Assembly: GCA_016867135.1 (NCBI GenBank)
Contig: VGKH01000005.1
Coordinates: forward strand, 1-44,332
Length of the DNA stretch: 44,332 nt
Source: Candidatus Omnitrophota bacterium
GTDB taxonomy: Bacteria > Omnitrophota > Gorgyraeia > VGKH01
Reading direction: 5' to 3'
Shown here: piece by piece, positions 1,643 through 40,902 of the stretch
Position numbering within the stretch: position 1 is the first letter of the stretch
How the letters are laid out: each line of letters starts with the position of its first letter
Notes under the pieces: model-generated
The model's input: only the letters and a program-made list of their open reading frames with translations
The model's database searches: none
What the model was told of the DNA's origin: nothing
Translations under genes and position numbers: made by a program

Positions 1643-1696
1643 AGGAAAAAAATGAAAGGAAAAAGTGAGAAGTAAAAAGGAAAAAGCACAAGTTAA

Positions 1697-1723
1697 AATT
1701 CAAAAGTTTTGTACTTTTGAATT
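1697..1723. repeat. AT-rich hairpin of the AATTCAAAAG repeat type
   Basis: Arms AATTCAAAAG (1697-1706) and CTTTTGAATT (1714-1723) are perfect inverted 10-mers with a 7-base loop. The same AATTCAAAAG word recurs at 24734-24832 and inside valS near 39251-39280, so this is probably a member of a dispersed repeat family and not a dedicated terminator; there is no T tract after it. The rest of the 143-bp spacer between fusA and gatC is AT-rich with no convincing promoter. Confidence 0.6.
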
Positions 1724-1785
1724 AAAACAAAAATAGGCAGAAAAAATCTACCCAATTTTTATAACCTATGATATAGTAAAACGAT

Positions 1786-2070: not shown

Positions 2071-2087
2071 AAGAAGGAAAGTTTTTG

Positions 2088-2172
2088 AACGCAGATAGTC
2101 GCAGATTGCACGCAGATGGTCGCAGATAAGATATCTGCGTAAATCTGCGTTAGATTTGCGTTAATCTGTGTT
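2088..2172. repeat. CGCAGAT palindromic repeat, copy 1 (gatC-gatA spacer)
   Basis: An 85-bp element made of about four CGCAGAT-type units in the left arm and four ATCTGCG-type units in the right arm, spaced by about 3-4 bases, so the transcript could fold into a long interrupted hairpin. It fills nearly the whole spacer between gatC and gatA. It is most similar to the copy at 40777-40861 (same length and mostly identical). No open reading frame of its own. Confidence 0.9.
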
Positions 2173-2186
2173 AAGAAAATGATTAA

Positions 2187-3608: not shown

Positions 3609-3619
3609 TAAAAATGTTT

Positions 3620-3701
3620 AACGCAGATAATCGCAAATCAAACGCAGATACACGCAGATTTATCTGCGACCATCTGCGTGAAATCCGCGAAAATCTGCGT
3701 T
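3620..3701. repeat. CGCAGAT palindromic repeat, copy 2 (gatA-gatB spacer)
   Basis: An 82-bp element of the same architecture as the one at 2088, but in sequence detail closest to the copy inside valS (39426-39507): both share the AATCAAACGCAGATA core on the left and the GACCAT motif on the right. It occupies most of the gatA-gatB spacer. Confidence 0.9.
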
Positions 3702-3718
3702 AAGAAAGTATTTTGATT

Positions 3719-5131: not shown

Positions 5132-6399
5132 AGCTTAGGAGAATTTTTACTTGGGTGCTTGTAGTCGGTATCACCATGTTTGTAACCGCGGTGGCGGTTT
5201 CGGAAATAGAAAAGAAGCAGAGAGACGAGATCTATAAGCAGATAGAATTATTTACTTATGCTTTTTCCGTAATCAAATCTGAATATGTCAGCGATCCGGC
5301 TCCGAAAGACCTGATATATGGGGCATTAAAAGGGATGCTTGCCGGATTGGATTCTCATAGCCAGTTTATGGATCCCGATACATATAACGAATTAAAAGTT
5401 GAGACCGAAGGAAAGTTCGGTGGATTAGGAATCGAGATTTCTATCAAGGATTCATTACTTACGATTATTACTCCCATAGAAGACACGCCAGCCTGGAAGG
5501 TTGGGCTTAAGGCCGGGGACAGGATAGTGAAGATCGGCGATGAGCTGACCAGGGATTTTACTCTAACCGATGCAGTTAAAAGGTTGCGCGGCAAGCCGGG
5601 GACGAGCGTTACTATCACCGTGCTTCGCGAGAGCGAGGGAAAGCTTCTACCTTTTACAATTGAGCGCGCAATTATAAATATCAAAGATGTAAAAGAAGCA
5701 AAGATCCTAGAGGACAATATCGGATATATACGTTTGGTGGAATTCCGCGAGAACACCGAGAAGGCGATGGATAAGGCGCTAACTGAACTTAAAAAACAAA
5801 ATGCTAATTGCGTAATCCTTGATTTACGTAATAATCCCGGCGGGCTATTGGATTCCGCGGTAAAAGTGACTAATTTTTTCATCGAACCGGGGAAAACCAT
5901 TGTTTACACCAAGGGGAGAAAATTGCTCCAGAATATTACCTTTAAATCAAGTTCCGATAAACCTATCCTTGACTGGCCAATGGTGGTTTTGGTAAATGAG
6001 GGCAGCGCTTCGGGGAGCGAGATCGTCGCCGGAGCTTTACAGGATTACAAAAGGGCGATAATCTTAGGGGCCAAGACATTCGGCAAGGGCTCGGTGCAGA
6101 CAGTGATCCCTCTTGCCGACGGTTCGGCACTCAGGCTTACCACCAGCGAATATTTTATCCCTTCGGGCAAAAACATAAATAAAGAGGGCGTTACTCCTGA
6201 CGTCAAGGTAGATCAAAAAGTTGTAGAACTAAAAGATGCAACGGACACAGAGACATTATTTAAAGAAATCCTTGATGGCAAGACCCCGGCAAAGGATGAG
6301 AAGAAAGCAGATGCGGATTATAAATCTGATTATCAGCTGGTCAGGGCAATTGACCTTTTAAAAGGTATACGCGTATTTAAACAGCAAGATAAAAAATAG
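5128..6399 (+). CDS. S41-family C-terminal processing peptidase (CtpA-like) with PDZ domain
   Basis: A periplasm-facing serine protease of the CtpA/Prc type, which trims or degrades envelope proteins from their C-termini. Residues 6-26 form a hydrophobic N-terminal anchor or signal (RRIFTWVLVVGITMFVTAVA). A PDZ domain spans about residues 90-175 (KFGGLGIEIS...GLKAGDRIVKIG), followed by the S41 core with LDLRNNPGG. The catalytic pair is visible: nucleophile Ser295 in NEGSASGSEIV and Lys320 in TFGKGSVQ, 25 residues apart as in Prc. The 423-residue length is typical. It overlaps gatB by four bases and is followed 11 bases later by an envelope deacetylase-like gene, a pairing common in Gram-negative-type genomes. 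Confidence 0.93.
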   Translation: MKLRRIFTWVLVVGITMFVTAVAVSEIEKKQRDEIYKQIELFTYAFSVIKSEYVSDPAPKDLIYGALKGMLAGLDSHSQFMDPDTYNELKVETEGKFGGLGIEISIKDSLLTIITPIEDTPAWKVGLKAGDRIVKIGDELTRDFTLTDAVKRLRGKPGTSVTITVLRESEGKLLPFTIERAIINIKDVKEAKILEDNIGYIRLVEFRENTEKAMDKALTELKKQNANCVILDLRNNPGGLLDSAVKVTNFFIEPGKTIVYTKGRKLLQNITFKSSSDKPILDWPMVVLVNEGSASGSEIVAGALQDYKRAIILGAKTFGKGSVQTVIPLADGSALRLTTSEYFIPSGKNINKEGVTPDVKVDQKVVELKDATDTETLFKEILDGKTPAKDEKKADADYKSDYQLVRAIDLLKGIRVFKQQDKK

Positions 6400-6410
6400 A
6401 CCTCCATTTT

Positions 6411-7193
6411 ATGAGAAAGAAATCTAGCCAAATCTTAATTATCGTACTTTGCTCCATTGTGGCAATCCAGGCGGTTTTTATAGTCGTCTTATTAAAAAAA
6501 GAGAGAAAGCCGGTTGTGAAAATCAAGAAGGCGAAAGTAGCCATAGTCCTGGATGATTGGGGCTACAATCTTAAACACATAAACTTTATAAAAGAGTCAA
6601 AATTACCGATGACCATTTCGATTCTTCCTTTTTTACCTTACTCTAAACAAATCTCCGAAGAGGCCGAAGGAAATAATCTGGAAGTCATTGTGCATTTGCC
6701 CTTAGAGCCTCATAATTGGCGAAAGGTAAACGTAGAAAAAAAGGTAATCCTTGGCTCGATGAAAAAAGACGAGATTTTGAAAATTCTTAGCGATTCGTTC
6801 AAAAGTGTCCTTCACGCGAAGGGAATCTCTAACCATATGGGGTCAAAAGCCACAGAGGATAAAGATTTGATGAGCGTTATTTTTGGCGAATTGAAGAAAA
6901 AAAGATTGTATTTTCTGGATAGTTTCGTGACGCCTAAAACTGTCTGCGAGGATTTGGCAGCCGATATGAATGTTGCATTCGCCCAGAGGACGATATTCTT
7001 GGATAACGAGGCGGATAGTGAATATATACACGGACAGTTAATGTCGCTTCTAGACCACGCTTCAAGGCACGGAGAGGCAATCGGCATTGGCCACGACAGG
7101 GACATGACCCTAAAAGTTATCAAAGAATTCTTACCTAAGATAAATAAAGAGAAATACGAAGTTGTTTTTGTTTCCGATTTGGTAAATAGATGA
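6411..7193 (+). CDS. Divergent polysaccharide deacetylase family protein (DUF610/YibQ-like)
   Basis: The family belongs to the divergent NodB-like polysaccharide deacetylases found beside S41 peptidases; the substrate is not established. An N-terminal hydrophobic segment (about residues 7-28, ILIIVLCSIVAIQAVFIVVL) anchors the protein or exports it. The catalytic-like fold begins at KVAIVLDDWGYN (a double Asp, as in NodB enzymes), continues with MTISILPFLPYS, VIVHLPLEP, ISNHMGSKATED, LYFLDSFVTPKT and ends with GIGHDRDMTLKVI. These blocks match the family well and the length (260) is normal. The stop overlaps the tsaD start by four bases. Confidence is high for the family, low for any particular substrate. 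Confidence 0.88.
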   Translation: MRKKSSQILIIVLCSIVAIQAVFIVVLLKKERKPVVKIKKAKVAIVLDDWGYNLKHINFIKESKLPMTISILPFLPYSKQISEEAEGNNLEVIVHLPLEPHNWRKVNVEKKVILGSMKKDEILKILSDSFKSVLHAKGISNHMGSKATEDKDLMSVIFGELKKKRLYFLDSFVTPKTVCEDLAADMNVAFAQRTIFLDNEADSEYIHGQLMSLLDHASRHGEAIGIGHDRDMTLKVIKEFLPKINKEKYEVVFVSDLVNR

Positions 7194-8152
7194 TAGTTTT
7201 AGGTATCGAGACTTCTTGCGACGAGACTTCAGCCTCAGTGGTAAAAGACGGCAGGAAGATTTTATCCAATATTGTAGCTTCCAGTCTTTCGCAACATAAG
7301 AAATTCGGCGGGATAGTCCCGGAGATCGCATCCAGGGCGCACCTTGAGTCGATTAATTTTGTGGTTAAAGAGGCGCTGGCGCAATCAAAGAAGCAATTAA
7401 AAGACATAGATCTGGTTGCAGTGACGTCTGATCCGGGGCTTATCGGTTCTTTGTTGGTCGGAATATCATTTGCCCGGGCGTTAAGTTTTGCGATAAGGAA
7501 GCCGATCGTAGAAGTTGACCACGTGTTAGCGCACCTTTATTCGGTTTTTTTAGAAGAAGATGTACCTAGGTTTCCTTTTGTGGGGATGGTTATCTCCGGA
7601 GGGCACACCAATCTTTATAAGGTTAAGGACTTTTGTTCTTTTAAGCTTTTAGGTACGACTTTAGATGACGCGGCAGGAGAGGCTTTTGATAAGGTGGCAA
7701 AGATTTTGAAATTAGGCTTTCCCGGAGGCCCGATAATTGATAAAGTATCTGGCAACATCAAAGATTTTAAAATAAAATTCAATTACTCAAAACTTCCAGG
7801 TACTTTTAATTTTAGTTTTAGCGGGCTTAAGACTACAGTTTTGTATTACGTGAATAAAGACTGGGATAAGAAAAAAATAAGCGCCAAAGACATCGCGGCT
7901 GGTTTCCAGGAAGCAGTTGTCAATAATCTTGTCGAGAAATCGTTATCTGCTTGCAGGAAACTTAAGATCAAAAGATTGGTTTTAGGCGGCGGAGTCGTGG
8001 CCAATTCAAGATTAAGAGAAAAATTATTGAGCGAGGCAAAAATACAAGGCGTAAAAGTTTATTTTCCTCAAAAAGCTTTATGCCTTGATAATGCTGCCAT
8101 GGTAGCTGGATTAGGTTACCGGGTTTTCAAAAAAGGAGGTGGCGTTTGTTAG
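7190..8152 (+). CDS. tsaD: tRNA N6-threonylcarbamoyladenosine (t6A37) transferase TsaD
   Basis: TsaD transfers the threonylcarbamoyl group to A37 of ANN-decoding tRNAs, working with TsaB, TsaC and TsaE. The 320-residue protein starts MIVLGIETSCDETSASVV (the ASKHA phosphate-1 motif), has the metal-binding HxxxH at His111/His115 (VDHVLAHLYS), the GMVISGGHTNLY block, the LGGGVVANSRLRE block and the C-terminal CLDNAAMVAGLGY. Nothing essential is missing. The gene is tightly packed: it overlaps the upstream deacetylase by 4 bases and the downstream MgtC-like gene by 7. Confidence 0.96.
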   Translation: MIVLGIETSCDETSASVVKDGRKILSNIVASSLSQHKKFGGIVPEIASRAHLESINFVVKEALAQSKKQLKDIDLVAVTSDPGLIGSLLVGISFARALSFAIRKPIVEVDHVLAHLYSVFLEEDVPRFPFVGMVISGGHTNLYKVKDFCSFKLLGTTLDDAAGEAFDKVAKILKLGFPGGPIIDKVSGNIKDFKIKFNYSKLPGTFNFSFSGLKTTVLYYVNKDWDKKKISAKDIAAGFQEAVVNNLVEKSLSACRKLKIKRLVLGGGVVANSRLREKLLSEAKIQGVKVYFPQKALCLDNAAMVAGLGYRVFKKGGGVC

Positions 8153-8577
8153 GCTATCAAGAAGTGTTATTGCGCTTGCTGGCGTCGGTTATCCTGGGTG
8201 GACTTATAGGTTTAGAGCGCGAACTAAGGCACAGAGGTGCAGGTTTTAGGACTCATACCTTGGTCAGCATCGGTTCGGCATTGATTATGTTGACATCGCT
8301 TTATGTTTTTGATATATATAAAGATGTAGCAAGTGTCGATCCAACGCGTATCGCTTCGGGAGTCATTACCGGCATTGGTTTCTTGTGCGCCGGGGCCATC
8401 ATGCGTTACGGCGGTTCAGTGAGGGGCCTGACAACAGCGGCTTGCCTTTGGGTTACCGCGGCAGTCGGTTTGGCTTGCGGTTGCGGTTTTTACTACGCGG
8501 CAATTGTCTCTACAATAATAATATTAATAGTTTTACAGGTGTTTCGCAAATTCGAAAAACATTTAGGCAAAGAATAA
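8146..8577 (+). CDS. MgtC/SapB family membrane protein
   Basis: A small inner-membrane protein of the MgtC family; members are linked to magnesium limitation and, in pathogens, to ATP synthase control, but the role here is unknown. The start is TTG at 8146, decided by a perfect AGGAGG at 8134-8139 with six-base spacing; it lies inside the end of tsaD. The 143 residues contain about four membrane helices and the family motifs GGLIGLERELRHRGAGFRTH (conserved Arg/Glu-rich loop), GSALIMLTS, TGIGFLCAGAIM and VRGLTTAACLWVTAA. The large C-terminal ACT-like domain of MgtC proper is absent, so it belongs to the short SapB-type group. Confidence 0.9.
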   Translation: MLGYQEVLLRLLASVILGGLIGLERELRHRGAGFRTHTLVSIGSALIMLTSLYVFDIYKDVASVDPTRIASGVITGIGFLCAGAIMRYGGSVRGLTTAACLWVTAAVGLACGCGFYYAAIVSTIIILIVLQVFRKFEKHLGKE

Positions 8578-8595
8578 TGAAAGGAGGGAAGAAAA

Positions 8596-9099
8596 ATGGC
8601 TTTTAAAGAGAAAAAGACAGATGATAAGATTCTTGACGTTGATGCAAGTATGCAGGGTACTTTATCTTTTAAAGACCCGGTGAATCTGCGCATTAACGGT
8701 CACTTTGACGGCACTCTTGAGACGAAAGGCAATTTGACAATCGGGGAGACTGCTAGCGTGACTGCTCATATCGTTGGCGAGAATATTATCATTGCAGGCA
8801 GAGTCAAGGGTGATGTTGTAGCGATGACAAGGTTGGTGTTTCTTCCGACGGCGGTATTTCACGGAGATATCAAAACACCAAAACTCAACATTGTTGAAGG
8901 CGCAGTATTCCAGGGCAAATGCAATATGATCCAGGATCTTTTGGATGCGGATGAAGTATCAAGATTTCTTGAGATAGACAAGAATTCTCTTCTTGACTGG
9001 GCAAATTCCGGAAAGATACCGGCAGTAAAGGAAGGCAACAGCTGGAGATTTGAACGCACAAAGATCGAAGAGTGGGTGGCATCAGGTAAGATCCGTTAA
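8596..9099 (+). CDS. Bactofilin fused to excisionase-type HTH DNA-binding domain
   Basis: Residues about 10-110 are a bactofilin (polymer-forming cytoskeletal) domain: a right-handed beta-helix with the repeating glycine/hydrophobic rhythm seen in NLRINGHFDGTLETKGNL, IGETASVTAHIVGENIIIAG and GAVFQGKCNM. Residues about 113-167 form a winged HTH of the excisionase/MerR-like type (LDADEVSRFLEIDKNSLLDW, then GKIPAVKEGNSWRFERTKIE and EWVASGKIR). Bactofilins polymerise without nucleotide at the cell envelope; the HTH would allow polymer-DNA contact, which is inference. A strong AGGAGG precedes the ATG at 8596. The next gene, only two bases downstream, has a paralogous HTH on a membrane anchor. The fusion is clear in the sequence; the function is not known. 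Confidence 0.88.
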   Translation: MAFKEKKTDDKILDVDASMQGTLSFKDPVNLRINGHFDGTLETKGNLTIGETASVTAHIVGENIIIAGRVKGDVVAMTRLVFLPTAVFHGDIKTPKLNIVEGAVFQGKCNMIQDLLDADEVSRFLEIDKNSLLDWANSGKIPAVKEGNSWRFERTKIEEWVASGKIR

Positions 9100-9101
9100 T
9101 T

Positions 9102-9398
9102 ATGGCAGAAAAATTAATTAATATCAGAGAGACAGCCGAGATATTGGGCTTGACTGAGAAGCAAGTTATTGATTTGTCTGGCGAAGGAAAAATTCCTGCC
9201 TATAAAATTGGTGGAGAATTCTTAAGATTCCGCTTGGACCAGATCCAATCCTTGAAAGATAATTTCCACCCGGAAGGCTCTCAACCAAAACAAAATTTCA
9301 GAGAACAGCTTCTAGACTTTTTTTATTTTAACGATTTTTATATTTTAACCCTAATCATCATACTGGTAGTTCTGCTTTTTATATTTAAGCATAAATGA
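9102..9398 (+). CDS. Membrane-anchored excisionase-type HTH protein
   Basis: A 98-residue protein with an N-terminal HTH of the excisionase family (INIRETAEILGLTEKQVIDL then GKIPAYKIGGEFLRFR, about residues 5-52) and one C-terminal transmembrane helix (about residues 76-95, DFYILTLIIILVVLLFIF) ending in a positive tail KHK. It therefore looks like a tail-anchored DNA-binding protein with the HTH in the cytoplasm. The HTH resembles that of the upstream bactofilin fusion, and the two genes are two bases apart, so they probably act together. It overlaps larB by four bases. No characterised homologue is recognised. Confidence 0.8.
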   Translation: MAEKLINIRETAEILGLTEKQVIDLSGEGKIPAYKIGGEFLRFRLDQIQSLKDNFHPEGSQPKQNFREQLLDFFYFNDFYILTLIIILVVLLFIFKHK

Positions 9399-10051
9399 GA
9401 TACTGCGACATTGGCTTTGCCAAAGTCGATACCGACAGGTGTAAAAGGCGCGGGTACCCTGAGGTCGTTTACTGCCCCGGTAAGACTAGGCAACAAATAA
9501 AACTGATCGCCAAAAAACTTTTAAAGGAAAACAAACAAGTTTTACTTACAAAAGTTTCGGAAGATATTTACTGCGATTTAAAAAAAGCCATTCCAAAACT
9601 CAAATACAATAAACAAGGAAAAGTCGCTTTTTTGTCACCTTTAAAAAATCCAAATAAAAATGGCCCAGTCTTAGTTGTAACCGGCGGTACTTCCGATATT
9701 CCTGTTGCCGAAGAGGCAATCGCAACCTTGGAATTCACCGGCAATAAGGTCAAGCGGCTTTATGATGTAGGGGTGGCCGGAGTCCACAGGCTATTAGATA
9801 ATAATAATTATTTAAAAAACTCTTCAGTCATTATCGTTGTTGCCGGGATGGAGGGCGCATTAGCAAGTTTGGTGAGTGGATTGGTTTCGTGTCCGGTCAT
9901 CGCAGTCCCCACTAGTTGCGGTTATGGTGCAAGCTTTAAAGGCTTATCTGCATTACTTACGATGATGAATAGCTGTTCTCCCGGGATCGCGGTTGTAAAT
10001 ATTGATAATGGATTTGGAGCAGGATATTTCGCAAATTTGATAAATAGATGA
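9395..10051 (+). CDS. larB: Nickel-pincer cofactor biosynthesis protein LarB
   Basis: LarB carboxylates the pyridinium ring of nicotinic acid adenine dinucleotide and cleaves it, the first step in making the nickel-pincer nucleotide. The protein has the LarB N-terminal signature (DTDRCKRRGYPEVVYCPGKT) and a PurE/AIR-carboxylase-like core: VLVVTGGTSDIPVAEEA, YDVGVAGVHRLL, VIIVVAGMEGALASLVSGL and VIAVPTSCGYGASFKG. Its 218 residues are slightly below the usual 240-250, the shortening lying at the N-terminus. LarC and LarE are not in the window. It sits directly upstream of a FmdE-like gene and the corrinoid branch of CODH/ACS, another nickel-linked system, so the clustering may be meaningful. 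Confidence 0.9.
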   Translation: MRYCDIGFAKVDTDRCKRRGYPEVVYCPGKTRQQIKLIAKKLLKENKQVLLTKVSEDIYCDLKKAIPKLKYNKQGKVAFLSPLKNPNKNGPVLVVTGGTSDIPVAEEAIATLEFTGNKVKRLYDVGVAGVHRLLDNNNYLKNSSVIIVVAGMEGALASLVSGLVSCPVIAVPTSCGYGASFKGLSALLTMMNSCSPGIAVVNIDNGFGAGYFANLINR

Positions 10052-10461
10052 AAAAAATAGACGAGGCAATAAAATTTCATGGCCATCTGGGCCCTTGGCT
10101 TGTTTTGGGTCTGATTTTTGGCGAGTTAGGCCTTAAGAAAATAAAAGCCAGGAAGTATTTCGGATTAAAGGTTGATGCAAGGCTTCCGTATCGGAAGCCA
10201 GTATCCTGTTTTATCGATGGACTTCAGCTTTCAAGCGGTTGCACTTTGGGCAAAAGAAATATCCGCGTAATAAACAGCAAAAATATCGCGGTTAAATTTA
10301 CAAACCTGAAAAATAGAAAAAATATGATTTTGGGCATCAATGATTCAATTCTATGTCGGTTGAATATGTTAAAGACGCATAGAGAAAGCGAAGATTTGGC
10401 TGCCAAGTTTTTAAGGATGAACCCAAATCGTTTATGCAAAATTATAAGAAAGGTATCTTAA
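10048..10461 (+). CDS. FmdE-like protein (formylmethanofuran dehydrogenase subunit E family)
   Basis: The FmdE family is named from methanogens but is widespread in bacteria, often beside metal-enzyme genes; its biochemical role is unclear. The N-terminal motif FHGHLGPWLVLG (residues 9-20) corresponds to the family's FHGHxCPG block, with Gly in place of the usual Cys. The second block GLQLSSGCTLGKRNI keeps the conserved Cys of the family's GCTxGKGN. There is no C-terminal zinc ribbon, so this is a short 137-residue form. It overlaps larB by four bases and is one base from acsC, suggesting one transcript. The family call is fairly sure; activity and ligand are not. Confidence 0.75.
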   Translation: MKKIDEAIKFHGHLGPWLVLGLIFGELGLKKIKARKYFGLKVDARLPYRKPVSCFIDGLQLSSGCTLGKRNIRVINSKNIAVKFTNLKNRKNMILGINDSILCRLNMLKTHRESEDLAAKFLRMNPNRLCKIIRKVS

Positions 10462-10462
10462 G

Positions 10463-11794
10463 ATGGCATTATCAGGATTAGATATTTATAAGCATTTAGC
10501 AAAGACAAATTGCCGCGAATGCGGATTTCCGACCTGCCTTGCTTTTGCCATGGCTTTGGCAAAAAAGCAGACTAGCCTTGATAAGTGTACTCATGTCAGC
10601 GATGAGGCAAAGATGAGATTGGAGTCGGCTGCGCTTCCTCCGATAAGATTAATAAAGATAGGATCCGGGGAGAAAGTCGTGGAACTAGGCAACGAAACGG
10701 TAATGTTCCGGCATGAAGAAAAATTCCATCATCCGGCGGCAATAGGCTTTCTATTAGAGGATAGCCTTGAGGAGAACAAGCTTAAAGAAAAGCTGGAGAA
10801 GATAAATAAATTAAGATTTGAGCGAGTCGGGCAATTAATCGAGGTTAATGTTGTTGCCGTTAAACAGACTAAAGACGATAATAATTTTATCAACAAAGTA
10901 AAATTGGCTAGCCAATCAACCGATTTGGCCTTGATGTTGATGAGCGGAAGCGTCAATGCCTTAACTAAATCTTTGGAGATATTGAAAGATAAAAAGCCGA
11001 TAATTTATTCGGCTAATAAAACTAACTTTGAGGATTTTGCCAAGTTGGCAAAAGAATTTAGTTGCAATATTGTGGTTTCTGCTGAAAACCTGGAAGAGTT
11101 AGCTGATCTCTCAGGTAAGGTCAGTTCTTTGGGAGCCGCAGATATTATTTTGGATACTGGCATTAGACCACTGGCCAAGAAAATTGCTGATTTCACCCAG
11201 CTTAGAAGACTGTCTCTTTTGAGGAATTTCCGTCCTTACGGTTATCCGAACATTGCTTTTATTGAAGAGAGCGATTTATTCAGGGAGTTAAGCGTCGCTT
11301 CAAGCTTGCTAGCAAAATACGCCAATATCCTGATACTAAGAAATATCGAGTCATGGGAAGTGCTTTCGCTTCTTACCTTGAGGCAGAATATTTATACCGA
11401 TCCACAGAAACCTCTGCAGGTAGAGCCGAAGATTTATCCGGTTGGCACGCCCGACGAGAAATCTCCGATTTTGGTGACGACGAATTTCTCATTAACTTAT
11501 TACACTGTTTTATCGGAAGTTGAATCAAGCAAGATATCTTCATACATTATGGCGGTAGATACTGAGGGCATGTCGGTCTTGACTGCTTGGGCGGCAGAAA
11601 AGTTTACCGCGGAGGTCATTGCCAAAACTCTGGAAAAACAGAATGCAAAGGATGTCGTTAAGCATAATCAGCTTGTAATTCCAGGATATGTTGCGGCGAT
11701 GAGCGGGGATCTGGAAGAAAAATCAAACTGGAAGATTTTAGTTGGGCCCAGAGAGGCCGCAGGCATAACAAATTTTTTAAGGAATTTAGGGTAG
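10463..11794 (+). CDS. acsC: CO dehydrogenase/acetyl-CoA synthase gamma subunit (corrinoid iron-sulfur protein, large)
   Basis: AcsC is the larger subunit of the corrinoid iron-sulfur protein that carries the methyl group from methyl-tetrahydrofolate to acetyl-CoA synthase. The N-terminal 4Fe-4S domain shows Cys17, Cys20, Cys25 and Cys42 (TNCRECGFPTCLAFAMALAK ... KC). The TIM-barrel region follows (about residues 90-310), then the C-terminal cobamide-binding region with VTTNFSLTYYTVLSEVE, VDTEGMSVLTAWAAEKF and LVIPGYVAAMSGDLEE. Its length of 443 is normal. acsV begins on the base after its stop. It is the first of five adjacent Wood-Ljungdahl genes. Confidence 0.94.
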   Translation: MALSGLDIYKHLAKTNCRECGFPTCLAFAMALAKKQTSLDKCTHVSDEAKMRLESAALPPIRLIKIGSGEKVVELGNETVMFRHEEKFHHPAAIGFLLEDSLEENKLKEKLEKINKLRFERVGQLIEVNVVAVKQTKDDNNFINKVKLASQSTDLALMLMSGSVNALTKSLEILKDKKPIIYSANKTNFEDFAKLAKEFSCNIVVSAENLEELADLSGKVSSLGAADIILDTGIRPLAKKIADFTQLRRLSLLRNFRPYGYPNIAFIEESDLFRELSVASSLLAKYANILILRNIESWEVLSLLTLRQNIYTDPQKPLQVEPKIYPVGTPDEKSPILVTTNFSLTYYTVLSEVESSKISSYIMAVDTEGMSVLTAWAAEKFTAEVIAKTLEKQNAKDVVKHNQLVIPGYVAAMSGDLEEKSNWKILVGPREAAGITNFLRNLG

Positions 11795-13726
11795 ATGAAA
11801 TTCAAAGTAAAATTTTATCCAGAAAATAAAGAGATTGAAGCTGAGCAGGGAAAAAGCGTGCTCGCGGCAGCGATTTCCGCCGGATTGCACATAAATTCCA
11901 GTTGCGGTGGCGACGGAGTCTGCGGAAGATGCAAGGTGATTATAAGAAAGGGTACAGTCCACACGCAGCCTTCGGGAAGAATATCGGCCGAAGAAAAAGC
12001 CAAAGGATATTATTTGGCCTGCCTTAGCACGGTTGAAAGTGATTTGGAAGTCGAGGTCCCTCCGGAATCAAAAATTGATTTAGATAAGATTTCAGACGAA
12101 GAGGCCTATCTTTCCCGCCTAAAAGGAATTTTTACGGAATCGGTAGAAATTGATAAGGCCGAGACAATTATCGGTGAAGAGCTTTTTTTACATTCTCCGT
12201 TAGCCTCAAAAATCTTCCTTGAATTACCCAAGCCCGACCTGGAAGATAAAATCAGTGACCTGGAAAGAGTTTATAGAGAAATACGCAAAAAAGAAAATCT
12301 TCCCATTATGCAGATGGGCCTGTCTAATGTACGAAGGCTGGGGAATCTTCTTCGTTCCAGTGATTGGAAAATAACGGTCACCTTAGGCAAGAGAAATGAT
12401 ACCGTTGAGGTAGTTTTGGTCGAGCCGGGAGATACTCAAGACAGGAGCTTTGGCTTTGCCTTTGATATAGGCACCACCACAATTTCCGGAGAGCTGATAA
12501 ATTTAAATACCAAAAAGATTCTTAGCGCAAAAGCAACCTTTAATAAGCAGGCCAGTTTCGGAAGCGATATTATCACAAGGATTATTTTTGCCCATGAGCA
12601 GGATGGCCTTGAACGTCTTCATCACGCTGTCATTGATGGGATGAATGCGATGATTAGGGAAATGGTTGCCGAGAATAATATCGATTTAAACGATGTTACG
12701 TGCTGTCTTTGCGCGGGTAATACTACAATGATTCATTTGTTGCTCAAGGTAGATCCTTCTTTTATCCGTAGAGAACCATACGTCCCCACGGCTAATTTTG
12801 TCCCCGTAGTCAGGGCTTCGGAGGCAGGGATAAAGATCAATCCTCGGGGGCTGTTGGCTTGCGTGCCGGGAGTTTCCGGTTATGTGGGCGGGGATATTAC
12901 CGCGGGAGTTCTGGCAAGCGGAATTTCAGATGCGGAGGAATTAAGCATCTTAATAGATATCGGCACAAACGGAGAAATTGTTTTGGGTAATAAAGACTGG
13001 CTGATAGGATGCGCTGCTTCCGCCGGACCGGCATTTGAAGGAAGCGGAGTTGTTTGCGGTATGAGAGCCACCAAAGGCGCCATCCAGAGATTTGAGATAG
13101 ACCCTAAAAACTTGAAAGTTAATTACGTTACAATCGGCGAAGTCTTACCGATTGGAATATGCGGTTCAGGTTATATTGATATCATTTCTGAGTTGTTAAA
13201 GACTCATATTATTGATAAAAACGGAAAGATCAATACTAGCATAAATGACAGCCGGATAAGGCAGGGGGAGTTTGGCAAAGAGTTTGTTTTGGTTGACAAA
13301 AAAGATACCGGGCATAAACAGGATATCGTTATCACCGAGATGGATTTGGATAATTTAAAGCGGGCGAAGGCGGCGATATTTTCCGCTACCTCAGCATTGG
13401 TCAAGCATTTGAATTTGTCATTTGAAGACGTAAGGAAGATATATATCGCCGGCGGTTTCGGAACTTATCTGGATATCGAGAAAGCAATCACTATTGGTTT
13501 ATTGCCGGATTTGCCCCGTAAGAAGTTTGTTTTTATCGGCAATAGTTCTTTGGCAGGTGCAAGAGAGATCCTTTTGTCTGTTGATGCGTTCCGCAGGGCA
13601 GACCAGATTGCAAAGAAGACTACTTACTTTGAATTATCCGTCGAGCCAGGTTATATGGATGAATATGTAGCAGCCTTGTTTTTCCCGCATACGGATAAAG
13701 AAAGATTCCCTTCAGTAATTAAATAA
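11795..13726 (+). CDS. acsV: Corrinoid protein reductive activator (RACo-like, 2Fe-2S plus ASKHA domain)
   Basis: RACo/AcsV reductively reactivates the corrinoid iron-sulfur protein when its cobalt is oxidised to Co(II), using ATP. The N-terminal 2Fe-2S ferredoxin domain has Cys37, Cys43, Cys46 and Cys76 (SSCGGDGVCGRCKV ... ACLS). A linker domain follows (residues about 90-205), then the ASKHA ATPase: FAFDIGTTTISGELINL (phosphate-1), CLCAGNTTMIHLLLK, DIGTNGEIVLG and KIYIAGGFGTYLDIEKA. The 643-residue length fits the family. Related activators serve methyltransferases (RamA/DUF4445 types), but the position between acsC and cooC/acsD supports the CFeSP role. Confidence 0.93.
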   Translation: MKFKVKFYPENKEIEAEQGKSVLAAAISAGLHINSSCGGDGVCGRCKVIIRKGTVHTQPSGRISAEEKAKGYYLACLSTVESDLEVEVPPESKIDLDKISDEEAYLSRLKGIFTESVEIDKAETIIGEELFLHSPLASKIFLELPKPDLEDKISDLERVYREIRKKENLPIMQMGLSNVRRLGNLLRSSDWKITVTLGKRNDTVEVVLVEPGDTQDRSFGFAFDIGTTTISGELINLNTKKILSAKATFNKQASFGSDIITRIIFAHEQDGLERLHHAVIDGMNAMIREMVAENNIDLNDVTCCLCAGNTTMIHLLLKVDPSFIRREPYVPTANFVPVVRASEAGIKINPRGLLACVPGVSGYVGGDITAGVLASGISDAEELSILIDIGTNGEIVLGNKDWLIGCAASAGPAFEGSGVVCGMRATKGAIQRFEIDPKNLKVNYVTIGEVLPIGICGSGYIDIISELLKTHIIDKNGKINTSINDSRIRQGEFGKEFVLVDKKDTGHKQDIVITEMDLDNLKRAKAAIFSATSALVKHLNLSFEDVRKIYIAGGFGTYLDIEKAITIGLLPDLPRKKFVFIGNSSLAGAREILLSVDAFRRADQIAKKTTYFELSVEPGYMDEYVAALFFPHTDKERFPSVIK

Positions 13727-13727
13727 T

Positions 13728-14474
13728 ATGGGACACACGATTGCAATTTGCGGAAAAGGAGGGACTGGCAAAACGACGATCTCAAGCCTTCTTATCGGCT
13801 GGTTGATTAAAAATAAGAGGGGTAAGATTTTGGCAGTTGATGCTGACCCCAATTCGAATTTAGCCCTGAATCTGGGGTTTAAGCCTACGGCCAATATCGG
13901 CGAGATGTTGGATGAGGTCTCAAAGAATCCTGCGATGATTCCGCGAGGGATGAGTAAGCCAGAATATATTGAATACAGGATTCAGACTGAAATGGTAGAG
14001 GCAGACTCTTTTGATGTTTTGGTTATGGGTAGGCCCGAAGGCCCGGGTTGCTACTGTTATGTCAATAATCTTTTAAGAGATATCGTCAAAAGATTGGTCA
14101 GTAGCTACGATTATATCGTTATTGATAACGAAGCGGGCTTAGAGCATCTTTCCAGGAGGACAATGCGCTCTGCGGATTTGGTGCTTATTATTTCCGACGA
14201 CACATCCGTGGGCCTGCGTTCTGCAAAGCGGATTGATGATTTGATCAAAGAATTAGATATCAAAGCCAAAAAAAGTTTCTTGGTTTTGAATAGAAGCGAT
14301 AACAATTCCGTTACTAAGGAATTAAAAGATTTGGGAATTGAATACCTTGATTCAATCCCGGTAGATAAGGAAATCTTAGAATTAAGTATAAAAGGAAAGC
14401 CTTTGACAGAATTGTCTGAGGGCTCGGCAGCATTAAAATCAATAGAAAGGATTTGCAAGAGACTATGGCAGTAG
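13728..14474 (+). CDS. cooC: CooC/AcsF-type ATPase for CODH/ACS maturation
   Basis: A MinD-type P-loop ATPase with the deviant Walker A GKGGTGKTT (residues 9-17), VDADPNSNLALNLGF and a central GRPEGPGCYCYVNNLLR stretch whose CxC motif is typical of CooC, which inserts nickel into CO dehydrogenase (AcsF does so for acetyl-CoA synthase). The 248 residues and overall fold match. It overlaps acsD by ten bases. Whether it serves CODH or ACS cannot be decided; neither catalytic subunit is in the window. Confidence 0.9.
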   Translation: MGHTIAICGKGGTGKTTISSLLIGWLIKNKRGKILAVDADPNSNLALNLGFKPTANIGEMLDEVSKNPAMIPRGMSKPEYIEYRIQTEMVEADSFDVLVMGRPEGPGCYCYVNNLLRDIVKRLVSSYDYIVIDNEAGLEHLSRRTMRSADLVLIISDDTSVGLRSAKRIDDLIKELDIKAKKSFLVLNRSDNNSVTKELKDLGIEYLDSIPVDKEILELSIKGKPLTELSEGSAALKSIERICKRLWQ

Positions 14475-15430
14475 AATTCTTGAAAATGAAATGGGCCAAT
14501 GCGATTAATGAAGTAGTTATCGGCGCAACAAAACAGGACGGAGGCAGCCGTTCTTCGGTTATAAAGGTTGGCGGCCAAACCACGCTGCCGTATCTATCAG
14601 ATGAGGGCAGCATTCCGAATCCTCCGGTGATTGCTTATGAAATCTGGGATGCCACACCAGGCGATTGGTCGGAAGTATTAAAAGAGCCTTTTGGCAACTG
14701 CTTAGGCAAGCCAGTTGAATGGGCGAAGAAATGCGTGAATGAATTCAAGGCAGATTTGCTTTGTTTGAGGCTTATGGGTGCGCATTCTGATTATGGCAAT
14801 AATTCGGCAGAAAAAGAAGCCGAAGTAGTAAAAGACATACTTAAGGCGGTTGATAAACCTTTGATAATTATAGGATGCGGCGATGACGAGAAAGATAATT
14901 TGGTTTTGCCTAAATGTGCTGAGGCGGCAAAGGGCGAGCGTTGTCTCATCGGAAGCGCGCTCCAGGATAATTATAAGACTTTAGCTGCTTCCTGCCTTGC
15001 CGACGGGCATAATATAATCGCCGAGTCGCCGATTGATATAAACATCGCCAAACAATTAAATATTCTGATTTCAGATATGGGTTTATCGCAAGATAGAATC
15101 GTGATAAATCCGACGATCGGTGCTTTGGGCTATGGTTTAGAGTACGCCTATTCAATAATGGAAAGAGGCAGGCTTTCGGCGTTAAACGGAGATAAGATGC
15201 TCGCCATGCCTTATGTCTGTTTTGTAGGATACGAATCCTGGCGCGCCAAAGAGGCCAAGGCTCTGGAAAAGGAATTCCCAGAATGGGGCAATGAAAAAGA
15301 TAGAGGCATTGCTTGGGAAATGGTTACTGCTACTGCGCTTCTTCAGGCAGGTGCGGATATTCTAGTAATGCGTCATCCGAAAGCGGTTGGAGAAGTACAA
15401 AAAACTATTAATAAATTGTTGGAGAAATAA
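14465..15430 (+). CDS. acsD: CO dehydrogenase/acetyl-CoA synthase delta subunit (corrinoid iron-sulfur protein, small)
   Basis: AcsD pairs with AcsC to form the corrinoid iron-sulfur protein. The ATG at 14465 (MAVEFLKMKWANAINEVVIG) is preferred over the TTG at 14453, which would lengthen an already extensive overlap with cooC. The TIM-barrel protein of 321 residues has the family blocks VGGQTTLPYLSDEGSIPNPP, LLCLRLMGAHSDYGNN, DRIVINPTIGALGYGLEY and the C-terminal ATALLQAGADILVMRHP. Length and order are normal. It is followed one base later by acsE. Confidence 0.94.
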   Translation: MAVEFLKMKWANAINEVVIGATKQDGGSRSSVIKVGGQTTLPYLSDEGSIPNPPVIAYEIWDATPGDWSEVLKEPFGNCLGKPVEWAKKCVNEFKADLLCLRLMGAHSDYGNNSAEKEAEVVKDILKAVDKPLIIIGCGDDEKDNLVLPKCAEAAKGERCLIGSALQDNYKTLAASCLADGHNIIAESPIDINIAKQLNILISDMGLSQDRIVINPTIGALGYGLEYAYSIMERGRLSALNGDKMLAMPYVCFVGYESWRAKEAKALEKEFPEWGNEKDRGIAWEMVTATALLQAGADILVMRHPKAVGEVQKTINKLLEK

Positions 15431-15431
15431 T

Positions 15432-16220
15432 ATGTTTATAATTGGAGAACTTATTAACGGAATGTATAAACAGGTAGGGAAGGCAATTGCCGAGAAAAAT
15501 AAAAAGGTAATTCAGGACCTAGCGAGAAAACAGGTTGAGGCCGGGGCAAGCGCGCTTGACGTTAATTGCGGCCCTTTGTCAAAGAATCCCGTTTCTGATA
15601 TGCAATGGTTGGTTGAGACCATTCAGGAATCCGTTGATGTCTCTTTGTCTTTAGATAGCACCAAAGCAGAAGTAATTGAGGCAGGATTAAAATTAGCCAA
15701 GAAAAAAGCAGTTATTAATTCCACCACTGCCGACCAAGAGAAGCTAGAAAAGTTAATCGGTATGGCCAAACAGTATAAAACTTATTTAATCGGATTAAGC
15801 CTCGATAAAAAAGGAGTACCTCAGGATAAAGATAGAAGAATTGAGTTAGCTGCGACTATTGCCGCCGCAGCGCAGGACGACGGTTTTCCCGTCGAGGATT
15901 TATTCCTGGATCCAGTGGTTTTGCCGGTTAACGTGGCACAATCCCAAGGCATAAATGTTATCGAGGCAATAAGAGAATTCAAATTATTGGCAAGCCCACC
16001 GCCAAGGGCAATTGTGGGCTTAAGCAATGTTTCGCAGGGCACCTGTGAAAGAAACCTGATTAACAGGATATTTTTGATAATGTCGGTAGGCGCTGGGTTG
16101 GATGCCGCGATTTTAGATCCTCTGGATAAAGAATTAATGAATTCGTTGATTACGGCAGAGTTGATTTTAAATAAGCAGATTTACTGCGATTCTTTTCTTA
16201 ATGCGTATAGGAAAAAATAA
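15432..16220 (+). CDS. acsE: Methyltetrahydrofolate:corrinoid iron-sulfur protein methyltransferase
   Basis: AcsE moves the methyl group of 5-methyltetrahydrofolate to the cobalt of AcsCD, linking the folate branch to acetyl-CoA synthesis. The start is the ATG at 15432 behind GGAGA, one base after acsD; a longer frame from 15387 has no suitable start. The pterin-binding TIM barrel shows GASALDVNCGPLSKNP, SLDSTKAEVIEAGLKL, INSTTADQEKLEKL, LFLDPVVLPVN and IVGLSNVSQGTCERN, all characteristic of AcsE and related to dihydropteroate synthase. The 262-residue length is typical. No methylene-THF reductase gene is present nearby. Confidence 0.94.
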   Translation: MFIIGELINGMYKQVGKAIAEKNKKVIQDLARKQVEAGASALDVNCGPLSKNPVSDMQWLVETIQESVDVSLSLDSTKAEVIEAGLKLAKKKAVINSTTADQEKLEKLIGMAKQYKTYLIGLSLDKKGVPQDKDRRIELAATIAAAAQDDGFPVEDLFLDPVVLPVNVAQSQGINVIEAIREFKLLASPPPRAIVGLSNVSQGTCERNLINRIFLIMSVGAGLDAAILDPLDKELMNSLITAELILNKQIYCDSFLNAYRKK

Positions 16221-16225
16221 CTCCC

Positions 16226-16594
16226 ATGACGGAAAGACAAGATAATATCCCGGAAAGAAGAAAATTCATCAGGCTTAATTCTTCTGTGGAAATCCAGTAT
16301 ACTGTCTTGGATGAGGGCGCTAACCAGGGGATAAAGGCTAAAAGTAGAAATATCAGTTCTGGTGGGATGGGTTTTGTAACTAGTCAGAAACTTGAAAATA
16401 ACAAAGTTTTAGGTTTATCTATTTATATGCCGGGAGAGTTGATGCCGATTATTGCAAAAGGCAGAGTTGTCTGGGCTAGCCCTTTTGAGAGCGCCAAGAC
16501 CAAAGGTTTTGATATCGGTTCGGAGTTTCTTGAGATCGCCCCGGAAGACAGAAAGAAAATAGATAACTATATACACTCTTTAAGAAAAAGTTAG
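16226..16594 (+). CDS. PilZ-domain protein (putative c-di-GMP receptor), first of three
   Basis: A single-domain PilZ protein of 122 residues. The c-di-GMP-binding signatures are present: the arginine cluster RRKFIRLNSSV (RxxxR, residues 11-16) and the NISSGGMGF motif corresponding to (D/N)xSxxG (residues about 44-52). The rest is the expected beta-barrel with a short C-terminal helix. It starts five bases after acsE, so it is probably read on the same transcript, but nothing shows that it acts on the acetyl-CoA pathway. Motility or pilus control is the usual role; a pilin gene lies just downstream. Confidence 0.87.
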   Translation: MTERQDNIPERRKFIRLNSSVEIQYTVLDEGANQGIKAKSRNISSGGMGFVTSQKLENNKVLGLSIYMPGELMPIIAKGRVVWASPFESAKTKGFDIGSEFLEIAPEDRKKIDNYIHSLRKS

Positions 16595-24159: not shown

Positions 24160-24392
24160 CACATTCGGCGACAAGCCCCAATGCTTGTCATTGGGGAGTC
24201 AGAGCCGTTCCGCTGAAGGCGGAAAAATCTTTAAAGGGCTTGTCGCTCTCAGTGTCAACACTGACCCATTCGACAGACTCAGGGTCAGTCCTGAGTGTAA
24301 TCGAAGGACTGAAGTATACCCCGTTGAGAATACAATATACAGAAGACAAGCCCCAATGCTTGCCATCGGGGTATACAAATGTGTTGACAATT
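24160..24392. repeat. Cluster of nested palindromes downstream of nnrD
   Basis: No gene is supported here. The stretch is an array of inverted repeats: GCGACAAGCCC (24168-24178) pairs with GGGCTTGTCGC (24236-24246); inside it CCCCAATG/CATTGGGG and TTCCGC/GCGGAA; then ACTGACCC (24260-24267) with GGGTCAGT (24282-24289); ACTCAGG with CCTGAGT; and GTATACCCCG near 24314 with CGGGGTATAC near 24367. The word GACAAGCCCCAATGCTTG occurs twice (24170 and 24334). This resembles dispersed palindromic repeats inserted into each other. Overlapping frames in this stretch have no protein-like sequence. Confidence 0.7.
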
Positions 24393-24608: not shown

Positions 24609-24839
24609 TTTTGAAAATATTATGGCGAAGGATAAACCTCAGCTCGGAGGTTTACTTCGGCGTTGCTCAGTATGGTTCGAAGTATGGTGAGAGAAATCGA
24701 ACCACGATTCTTCTCGCCAGCTCTTTGAAAAATCAAAATTCAAAAGGCAAAATTCAAAAAGAAGCAATTCAAAATTAAAGATTTTTACTTTTGCCTTGAG
24801 TACTTTTTACTTTTGAATTTTTACTTTTGACTTTTTAAC
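24609..24839. repeat. Hairpins and AT-rich inverted repeat between tRNA-Thr and tRNA-Tyr
   Basis: No gene is supported. TAAACCTC (24633-24640) pairs perfectly with GAGGTTTA (24647-24654); TGGTTCGA (24673-24680) pairs with TCGAACCA (24697-24704). From about 24734 to 24832 the left side repeats CAAAATTCAAAA and the right side repeats ACTTTTGAATTTTT and ACTTTTGAC, so a transcript could fold into a long AT-rich hairpin ending just before tRNA-Tyr. The AATTCAAAAG word links it to 1697-1723 and to the valS insertion near 39251. Confidence 0.65.
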
Positions 24840-37965: not shown

Positions 37966-40761
37966 ATGACAGAACTCGCCACACGTTATAATCCCAAAGA
38001 AGCGGAAGATAAAATCTACGATTTTTGGCAGAAAAATTATCTATTTTCTACCAAAGCTAATTCTAAAAAGAAACCGTTCTGTATTGTAATCCCGCCGCCG
38101 AATGTCACGGGAATCCTGCATATGGGCCACGCCCTAAATAATACTTTGCAGGATATCATAATCCGCTATAAAAAGATGCAAGGTTTTGAGTCTTTGTGGA
38201 TGCCGGGAACCGACTATGCCGGAATCGCCACCCAAAACGTCGTCGAGCGTGAACTAGCGCAAGAAGGTAAGACCCGCGAGGATTTAGGTAGAGAAGAATT
38301 TATCAAGCGGCTTTGGCAGTGGAAGGATAAATATGGCGATACCATAATTCATCAGTTAAAAAAGCTTGGATGTGCCTGCGACTGGTCGCGGCTTCGTTTT
38401 ACCATGGATGATGATTATTCGAACGCGGTCAAAGAAGTTTTTGTTCATCTCTATAAAAAAGGATTAATCTATCGCGGAAAATACATTATCAACTGGTGCC
38501 CGCGTTGCCAGACTGCATTGTCAGATGAAGAAGCTCAGCATAAAGATTTAAAAGGTAAACTCTATTATATAAAGTATCCTTTCAAGGATGAGCCTAGCAA
38601 ATTCGTAGTAGTTGCCACAACCCGTCCGGAAACTATGCTTGGAGATACCGCAGTTGCAGTTAGCCCCAAAGATAAGCGCTATAAGAATCTTATTGGAAAA
38701 ACTTTGACTCTGCCTTTGATGGAGCGTCCGATTAAAATTATCGCTGATTCTACTGTAGACCCTAAATTCGGCACCGGTGCGGTAAAAGTTACGCCAGCCC
38801 ATGATCCCAATGATTTCGAAATCGGCAAGCGCCACAAATTGGAATTTGTAAATATCATGCAGCCTGATGCCAAATTAAATGAAAATGCCGGACAATTTAT
38901 GGGCATGGATAGATTTGAGGCTCGTGAGGCTATTTTGGAGGAATTAGAGGAAAGAAATCTCCTCGAAAAAACCACTGATCATGATCATGCGGTCGGCCAT
39001 TGTTATCGCTGCCATACAATTGTCGAACCATATTTGTCCAAGCAATGGTTTGTGAAAATGAAGCCGTTGGCCAAGCCTGCGATTGAAGTGGTTAAAAAGG
39101 GCGAAATAAAATTCACTCCCAGCCGTTGGACCAAAGTCTATTTAAATTGGATGGATAATATCCAGGATTGGTGCATTTCGCGCCAAATCTGGTGGGGCCA
39201 TCGGCTCCCTGTTTACTATTGTCAAAAATGCTCAGAAACAGGAAGCCTAAATTCAAAATTCAAAAGTCAAAATGCAAAAGCCCAAGATGGAATAATAGTC
39301 TCCAAGACTAAACCGGAAAAATGTCCTTATTGCGGCTCAACTGATTTAGTTCAAGATGAAGATGTCCTGGATACATGGTTCTCTTCGTGGTTATGGCCGT
39401 TTGCAATATTTGGATGGCCTTTTTCAACGCAGATAAACGCAAATCAAACGCAGATAAACGCAGATAAATCTGCGACCATTAGCGTGCAATCTGCGAAAAT
39501 CTGCGTTCAAAAAGAAGATTTAAATTATTTCTATCCTACTTCAGTTCTGATTACCGCCCCGGAAATCATTTTTTTCTGGGTAGCGCGCATGATTATGGCT
39601 GGCCTGGAATTTATGAAGGAAATCCCGTTTTCTGATGTCTATATCCACGGAACAGTTCGCGATGCCAAAGGCTTAAAGATGTCAAAGTCTCTGGGCAATG
39701 CCATTGATCCGCTAAATATCATTGAAGAATTCGGCACCGATGCTTTGCGTTTCAGTCTGATTATAAACAGCGGCCAGGATTTGTTTTTATCAAAAGAAAA
39801 ATTTGAAGTGGGACGAAACTTTGCCAATAAAATCTGGAATGCCTCGCGATTTGTGTTGATGAACCTTCAGCCGAAGGCTGATCCGCCTACGGCGGAAAAG
39901 AAAAAAGTCTCCGAATTTGATTTATGCCAGATTTATCAAAAAGAGAAGTTGGATTTGCCTTCACGCTGGATTTTATCGCGGCTTTACACTACTATTGATA
40001 AAATCAATAAGGCTATAGATAAATATTCCTTTAACGAGGCGGAAAACCTGGTTTATGAATTTTTCTGGCATGAGTTCTGCGACTGGTACCTGGAAATTGT
40101 TAAGGATAAAATCTCGGATAAAAATATCCAGATTTTGATCTATAAGGTGCTAGAAAAGTCTATACGGATGCTGCATCCGTTTATGCCTTTTATTACCGAA
40201 GAGATTTGGCAGAAGCTTGCTCCTGAGACTGGTTCAATTATGAATCAGTCCCTGCCGCATGTGCAAAAGCAAATGATTGATAAGAAAACTGAATTGCAAA
40301 TGCAGGTAATTATTGATTTGGTAAGCTCCCTAAGAAATATCCGGGCTGAATGGAACATCCCGCCATTAGAGAAGATTGATGTCATCTTAAAAGTTACTGA
40401 TCATCAGGCCATCAAATTACTTGATGAGAATCAGGCGATTATCAAGAACTTATCCAGGATTAATAATTTTAATATAGTAGAGGAAATCGCCCGTCCCAAG
40501 GATTCAGCTTCAGCTGTAGTGGGAAGAGTAAGTTTCTTTGTTCCTTTAACCGGTCTAATTGATATCCCCAAAGAAAAATCCCGCATTGAAAGTCAAATCT
40601 CGCAAAACGAAAACATCCTAAAAAGTCTCAACGCTCGTCTTAAAAACAAGCAATTCTTATCCAGGGCTCCCAAAGAAGTTGTGGCAAGCGAGAAGCAGAA
40701 GTCATTGGAAATAGCTGATAAAATAGAGAAGCTGAAGAAAGTAATTAAAGAGTTAAAATAA
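37966..40761 (+). CDS. valS: Valyl-tRNA synthetase with three repeat-derived in-frame insertions
   Basis: ValS charges tRNA-Val and edits threonine. Class I motifs are intact: PPPNVTGILHMGHALNNT (HIGH) and GLKMSKSLGNAIDPL (KMSKS). Editing-domain blocks (TTRPETMLGDTAVAV, AHDPNDFEIG), the anticodon-binding domain and a C-terminal coiled coil (about residues 870-930) are present. Three insertions are odd. Residues 428-438 (LNSKFKSQNAK) come from an AATTCAAAAG-type repeat and lie in the zinc-knuckle loop between CQKC and CPYC. Residues about 487-515 come from an 82-bp CGCAGAT palindrome. Residues 634-644 come from two adjacent hairpins. All keep the frame, so the 931-residue enzyme is presumably active. 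Confidence 0.95.
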   Translation: MTELATRYNPKEAEDKIYDFWQKNYLFSTKANSKKKPFCIVIPPPNVTGILHMGHALNNTLQDIIIRYKKMQGFESLWMPGTDYAGIATQNVVERELAQEGKTREDLGREEFIKRLWQWKDKYGDTIIHQLKKLGCACDWSRLRFTMDDDYSNAVKEVFVHLYKKGLIYRGKYIINWCPRCQTALSDEEAQHKDLKGKLYYIKYPFKDEPSKFVVVATTRPETMLGDTAVAVSPKDKRYKNLIGKTLTLPLMERPIKIIADSTVDPKFGTGAVKVTPAHDPNDFEIGKRHKLEFVNIMQPDAKLNENAGQFMGMDRFEAREAILEELEERNLLEKTTDHDHAVGHCYRCHTIVEPYLSKQWFVKMKPLAKPAIEVVKKGEIKFTPSRWTKVYLNWMDNIQDWCISRQIWWGHRLPVYYCQKCSETGSLNSKFKSQNAKAQDGIIVSKTKPEKCPYCGSTDLVQDEDVLDTWFSSWLWPFAIFGWPFSTQINANQTQINADKSATISVQSAKICVQKEDLNYFYPTSVLITAPEIIFFWVARMIMAGLEFMKEIPFSDVYIHGTVRDAKGLKMSKSLGNAIDPLNIIEEFGTDALRFSLIINSGQDLFLSKEKFEVGRNFANKIWNASRFVLMNLQPKADPPTAEKKKVSEFDLCQIYQKEKLDLPSRWILSRLYTTIDKINKAIDKYSFNEAENLVYEFFWHEFCDWYLEIVKDKISDKNIQILIYKVLEKSIRMLHPFMPFITEEIWQKLAPETGSIMNQSLPHVQKQMIDKKTELQMQVIIDLVSSLRNIRAEWNIPPLEKIDVILKVTDHQAIKLLDENQAIIKNLSRINNFNIVEEIARPKDSASAVVGRVSFFVPLTGLIDIPKEKSRIESQISQNENILKSLNARLKNKQFLSRAPKEVVASEKQKSLEIADKIEKLKKVIKELK
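39249..39280. repeat. AATTCAAAAG-type repeat inside valS
   Basis: AAATTCAAAATTCAAAAG followed by TCAAAATGCAAAAG, directly comparable to the repeated CAAAATTCAAAAGGC words near 24734-24760 and to the hairpin arm at 1697. It encodes LNSKFKSQNAK in the zinc-knuckle loop. Confidence 0.7.
39426..39507. repeat. CGCAGAT palindromic repeat, copy 3 (inside valS)
   Basis: An 82-bp copy with the same arms as 3620-3701, read in frame as part of valS (TQINANQTQINADKSATISV and the following eight residues). It lies between GWPF and EDLNYFYP, where other ValS proteins have only a few residues. Confidence 0.9.
39867..39896. repeat. Double hairpin repeat inside valS
   Basis: Two adjacent 15-base palindromes, TCAGCCGAAGGCTGA (39867-39881) and TCCGCCTACGGCGGA (39882-39896). 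The second matches TCCGCCTATGGCGGA next to tRNA-Pro (27815-27829) at 14 of 15 bases. It is read in frame as part of QPKADPPTAEK. Confidence 0.75.
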
Positions 40762-40776
40762 AAGAAAGAATTCTTT

Positions 40777-40861
40777 AACGCAGATAGTCGCATATTGCAC
40801 GCAGATGGTCGCAGATGAAACATCTGCGTAAATCTGCGTTAGATTTGCGAGAATCTGCGTT
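40777..40861. repeat. CGCAGAT palindromic repeat, copy 4 (downstream of valS)
   Basis: An 85-bp copy nearly identical to copy 1 at 2088, placed in the spacer between valS and the cyclophilin gene. With copies 2 and 3 it shows two subfamilies (1/4 and 2/3). Confidence 0.9.
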
Positions 40862-40902
40862 CAAAATATAGTTCTTTATTGATTAAACGAAAGGAGCTCA
40901 AG

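Follow-up and report, generated by a model that had tools for sequence, protein, structure and literature searches.

Most known cases of repeats lodged within conserved genes come from Rickettsia or involve the ends of genes. The Rickettsia palindromic elements (RPE; Ogata, 2000), in the account given of them in PMC2229807, are 105–146 bp long and were reported in 19 reading frames. Heptanucleotide tandem repeats include the cyanobacterial STRR, the TAACTGA repeats of Beggiatoaceae (PMC4679880) and the GGGAATC-type repeats of Xanthomonas and Nostoc (PMC4692102), and they were reported mainly between genes or at protein ends (PMC4679880, PMC4692102).

The stretch analyzed here (the window, 44,332 nt) carries palindromic and heptamer repeats inside valS (37966..40761, + strand), an uninterrupted ORF of 931 aa encoding valyl-tRNA synthetase (Pfam tRNA-synt_1, Anticodon_1 and Val_tRNA-synt_C; PDB 1gax, E 2.5e-219). 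In the codon alignment with valS of the same-genus genome G001 (86% amino acid and 80% nucleotide identity), we observed exactly three internal gaps, of 45, 84 and 30 nt, with one repeat in each. The three corresponding inserts, all on the + strand, are insert 1 (39232..39276, 15 aa, residues 423–437, SETGSLNSKFKSQNA), between the two CxxC pairs of the zinc knuckle; insert 2 (39421..39504, 28 aa, residues 486–513, FSTQINANQTQINADKSATISVQSAKIC), between GWP and YFYP; and insert 3 (39868..39897, 10 aa, residues 635–644, QPKADPPTAE), in the linker preceding the anticodon-binding domain. Stretches of insert residues include STQINANQTQINADK and LNSKFK. The original prediction of three different repeats in frame in valS, the first in the zinc-knuckle loop and the second before YFYP, was thus borne out, as were the 28 and 10 residues that it assigned to the last two, but the first insert adds 15 residues and not 11. 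In the AlphaFold2 model of this ValS, whose best PDB match was again 1gax, the Thermus thermophilus enzyme, the mean pLDDT was 88.7 and values below 50 were confined to the three inserts (427–429 and 432–434 in insert 1, 488–505 in insert 2, 637–649 in insert 3), which are predicted to be disordered.

All three repeats had been described as palindromic, which suits the last two. At the first site, the AATTCAAAAG segment forms no hairpin (fold z +1.7), ruling out a palindrome there; it is a tandem array of about 4.4 units of the heptamer AAATTCA (39249..39279, + strand; period-7 score 15), located in and slightly past insert 1. The CGCAGAT element pairs over 96 nt as a full-length hairpin (39419..39514, + strand; −34.9 kcal/mol, z −7.2), rather than over the 82 bp first proposed. 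The third repeat is a double hairpin, TCAGCCGAAGGCTGA-TCCGCCTACGGCGGA (39867..39896, + strand; −17.9 kcal/mol, z −3.8). With these hairpin z-scores, and with no heptamer arrays in shuffled sequences, chance is excluded for the valS repeats.

Copies of all three were found elsewhere in the genome. The CGCAGAT element occurs at about 10 places (15 matches over both strands), with copies 88–91% identical outside valS, and intergenic copies fold likewise (z −8.9 and −9.6). Three intergenic copies lie in the window, at 2082..2180 (− strand), at 3617..3708 (+ strand, 88% identical to the valS copy) and, directly downstream of valS, at 40771..40869 (− strand). Among the copies examined, the one in valS was the sole copy within a gene, the others being intergenic or touching predicted ORF ends; one of its six frames is open, and this is the frame in use. 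The sister genome G001 has the element at one place, against about 10 here, which therefore indicates recent amplification. Together with the terminal inverted repeats, this suggests that the CGCAGAT palindrome is a mobile element. No target-site duplication was evident at the CGCAGAT insert, the empty site of G001 differing around the junction, and neither a clear target-site duplication nor a mobilising enzyme was identified for the palindromes or the heptamer arrays. A literature search on the CGCAGAT repeat found nothing relevant.

The AATTCAAAA family, to which the first array belongs, gave 41 matches in the genome versus 8 with the reversed control; among the 30 matches examined, valS contained the only clear interior array, and another match formed the C-terminal tail of a deaminase. 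In the window, AATTCAAAA-type heptamer repeats are present outside any conserved gene at 24729..24773 (+ strand) and an inverted, intergenic heptamer array at 24801..24835 (− strand). The intergenic AATTCAAAA arrays (G000:C19, C6 and C18) often have an inverted copy next to them, forming small hairpins, and the valS copy corresponds to a single arm. The double hairpin gave 12 matches versus none with the reversed control and was in frame in three genes: valS, dnaK, and an ORF with a Hint domain. In DnaK it forms part of the C-terminal tail, KSAKGGSASGGE (G000:C43:1406-4422, ORF 1450-3015, − strand), and in the Hint-domain (PT-HINT) ORF (G000:C79:409-3425, ORF 1-1617, + strand) it is found immediately ahead of the C-terminal motif. 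We also observed two copies of a 27-nt repeat, GACAAGCCCCAATGCTTGTCATTGGGG, 175 bp apart downstream of nnrD (24170-24196 and 24345-24371 of the window).

The presence of empty sites in the sister genome, and the rarity of longer loops in distant ValS, show that these segments originated by insertion. The second loop was 10–13 aa long in all 80 ValS of other phyla, versus 40 aa here, and was at least 5 residues above the median in 0/80 of them versus 17/56 ValS of the class; the first loop was at least 5 residues longer in 3/80 versus 43/55. Since long loops are rare in these 80 sequences, the same segments are not a feature of most distant ValS. Among five control stretches of ValS, four were without such length changes and the fifth had only rare ones, in both sets. 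The alternative that the longer second loop was ancestral and then lost in the sister genome was rejected because G001, the 80 outgroup sequences and G032, the next relative in the tree, which is without the first two inserts, all lack the second insert. We thus consider it likely that the three repeats entered valS by separate insertions after the split from the same-genus relative. The genome is a draft of 105 contigs and assemblies fail at repeats, which could point to an assembly or binning artefact; we regard this as scarcely credible, as the flanks at the three sites align to one ValS with the frame kept and arrays recur in these loops in independent genomes, the single-contig G055 among them.

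The 56 distinct ValS genes of the class contained 34 arrays of period 7 and at most 4 of any other period, and codon shuffles produced none at period 7. All but three of these heptamer arrays (31/34) fall in three loops, at residues 206–213, 423–440 and 486–517 in the numbering of this ValS, and about a third of the genes (20/56, counting the detected period-7 arrays plus a few repeats assigned by eye, with site labels also partly assigned by eye) have at least one repeat there. On the tree, built with FastTree and with 28 of its 61 inner branches starred, the minimum number of presence/absence changes was 7, 10 and 5 at the three loops, at least 22 in total. The heptamers differ between lineages, even between sister genera: ACCACGA (four times) and GCCTGCA in G045, CAGCCAT and CAGTCCA in G038, CAGCCAT in G046, AAATCCC and ACGAAGG in G008, ACAAGCG in G009. 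G002 has a palindrome, GTCATTGCGAG, in the same set of loops. The two in-gene cases among the outgroups, from a Saganbacteria and an Omnitrophota record, also sit in these loops; the single Omnitrophota record of the tree grouped with the class, with weak support. Near residue 207, in the same loop, a Cloacimonadota ValS of the outgroup reads SVILSGVEG, which we take to resemble a widespread GTCATCCTGAG-type repeat.

The reading frames of the arrays bear the mark of a sieve. Among intergenic array strands, 40% had no open frame and 22% (16/72) had all three open, whereas all three frames were open on the coding strand of 21/32 ValS arrays (p 4e-5, the intergenic set being dominated by this AT-rich genome). 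Successive copies of a 7-bp unit are read in each of the three phases, so a unit free of stop triplets is open in any frame; heptamer arrays therefore suit in-frame insertion, the requirement left being a total length divisible by three. The class ValS matches, among those listed, were ORFs without internal stops. With open frames and no internal stops, the inserts therefore appear to be read through and filtered by selection, and we infer that their residues are present in the ValS protein. Non-coding repeats thus appear to turn directly into pieces of protein, and the original prediction that repeats create new protein segments here holds only as far as sequence and reading frame are concerned. 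The strong hairpin of the CGCAGAT insert could be taken as a sign that inserts are skipped or removed, by ribosome bypassing of the hairpin or by RNA removal, and never reach the protein. This is highly improbable: if inserts were skipped or removed, neither frame nor stops would be constrained, whereas the inserts of the class keep the frame and are stop-free, which rules out hairpin skipping, and arrays without hairpins show the same behaviour.

Heptamer arrays are also found outside ValS. Statements at genome scale draw on pattern searches and on two sets of samples, 415 kb from this genome (about 29% of it) and 387 kb from relatives, in which genes were called as ORFs of at least 100 residues. 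These samples contained 16 and 29 arrays of period 7, respectively, and at most 3 of periods 5, 6, 8–13 and 15 (period 14 being the double of 7); shuffles gave none at period 7. In this genome, 11/16 arrays were outside ORFs; in the relatives, 16/29 were in ORFs, a share biased because some contigs were sampled for carrying valS. Nine of these 16 were in ValS, and the other seven, mostly internal to conserved genes, included ThrC twice, FolP, NnrD and NadC. One ThrC loop contained heptamer arrays in four families among the 29 relatives read, differing from one another, three of them clear and one degenerate; the loop is 32 residues long in three families (L251, L258 and L262; the fourth locus is L270), 7 above the shortest relatives. 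In G045 an identical heptamer was found in valS and thrC. Two further observations concern in-frame arrays: an AACCAGT array in the gene for PyrK, the dihydroorotate dehydrogenase electron transfer subunit (16456-16482 of the G000:C1 sample), and a cluster of arrays in FolP, NnrD, ThrC and the start of a SurA-like ORF within one 20-kb stretch (G003:C26, sample 2103-16203).

The recurrence of inserts at the same loops in many lineages, and the position of insert 1 within the zinc knuckle, could suggest that inserts are retained for a benefit to ValS, by modulating its stability, tRNA binding or partner binding. We find this improbable, as insert sequences are unrelated between lineages and missing from close relatives, the inserts are predicted to be disordered, and the same pattern was observed in unrelated enzymes.

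The origin of the arrays is less clear-cut, and it is solely on this point that two of the readings differ. Heptamer arrays have a preferred length, with a peak at 24–35 nt (69/127 in the samples; 27/39 at 28–35 nt in ValS), whereas arrays of other periods decay in length as in shuffles. This goes against simple slippage, which predicts decay without a mode. Dispersal favours copying and was seen for several families: AATTCAAAA in this genome, the AAATCCA type in G050, and CAGCCNT in both G010 and G046. As a counterpoint to a pure copy-paste of dispersed repeats, AAATCCC of G008 and CAGCCAT of G038 were found nowhere else in their own genomes besides ValS (whole-genome pattern search, up to one mismatch), and this favours local writing. 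The arrays could indeed be made in place, for instance through slippage of the polymerase or a 7-nt template that is copied several times over, each locus thereby acquiring its own heptamer, with palindromes forming a separate mobile class. The two unmatched heptamers are consistent with such an origin, as are the finding of a copy elsewhere for only 2/20 ValS arrays (in samples of 13–60 kb, so small that this donor search is weak), the unit length of 7 in nearly all arrays regardless of sequence, the favoured array length, and the polymerase-footprint idea for 7-mers, as cited in PMC4679880 and PMC4692102. The dispersed families and the heptamer common to valS and thrC in G045 argue against it, and the mode in array length does so for simple slippage. 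We thus hold local writing to be possible but less probable than not, and the confidence that we place in it overlaps with that placed in the preferred reading, that of repeats arising or landing across the genome, since the two differ in array origin and in nothing else.

In that preferred reading, which we consider probable for the class as a whole, selection keeps the in-frame, stop-free repeats in disordered loops. Repeat units, mostly arrays of about 30 nt of a 7-bp unit and sometimes palindromes, would arise or land genome-wide, presumably either by moving to a site or by being written there. Copies that shift the frame, bring in a stop or strike a folded part would be lost; in-frame, stop-free copies in disordered surface loops would persist and be translated, their residues being probably neutral or slightly harmful. 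Direct support comes from the inserts and their empty sites, the recurrence of different repeats at the same loops, the open-frame sieve and the predicted disorder. A bolder version, which we consider unlikely, would have a dedicated process write heptamer arrays of set size (about 31 nt, 4–5 units) at sites where a donor match is not required, with the loops of essential enzymes as a regular sink and repeat insertion followed by decay as a main route to new protein segments in the class.

Dozens of separate insertions, all in frame and in the same loops, are thus recorded in ValS, an essential and well-studied enzyme, so that the rate of repeat-to-protein conversion, the loops that tolerate it and the speed at which the repeat signature is lost become measurable. 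The fixed 7-bp unit and favoured array size also offer a way into a puzzle noted long ago, the unexplained excess of heptamer repeats in bacteria.

Compared with known systems, the likeness to RPE proposed by the original prediction stands for the CGCAGAT element and does not extend to all three repeats, one of them being a heptamer array. Like RPE, the CGCAGAT element is a long stem-loop palindrome of similar size, present in several copies that lie between genes and, in frame, within a conserved gene, where it is tolerated in a loop; it is slightly shorter (96 nt vs. 105–146 bp), and one of about 10 copies is in a gene, vs. 19 reading frames. It works like RPE but is not placed among them, as the relatives of its host genome are not Rickettsia but uncultured bacteria of one class, probably within the Omnitrophota. 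The inserts of the class as a whole are mostly heptamer arrays and not palindromes. The repeats here also resemble bacterial MITEs with open frames (ERIC/RU-1, RU-3, NEMIS; PMC2229807, PMC2759123) in being small, non-autonomous, with inverted ends (the CGCAGAT element, CTTTTTCAACGCAGAT ... ATCTGCGTTCAAAAAG, pairs end to end) and fused in frame to genes, although neither a target-site duplication nor a parent transposon was identified. The double hairpin, short and GC-rich, is similar to REP elements with RAYT (Y1_Tnp) transposases (cf. PMC3733652), and the genome has two RAYT-like Y1_Tnp (PF01797) matches over the cut-off (G000:C35:11505-11885 and G000:C3:24061-24396, one with an internal stop); unlike in REP elements, no GTAG/CGTC tag was seen in it. 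The arrays of the class, in which period 7 dominates, share with STRR and the other known heptanucleotide repeats the 7-bp unit, the few copies per array and the dispersal (of one family in this genome). As for location, the arrays lie mostly outside ORFs in this genome's sample, which fits STRR-type repeats, and more often within ORFs in that of the relatives, where nine of the arrays in ORFs come from contigs chosen for valS. In contrast to the known repeats, they are found mid-gene and in frame in conserved housekeeping genes, where they recur at certain loops with many different units. As far as the literature searched shows, what is new is that many unrelated heptamers have come to occupy, time and again, the same internal loops in essential enzymes.
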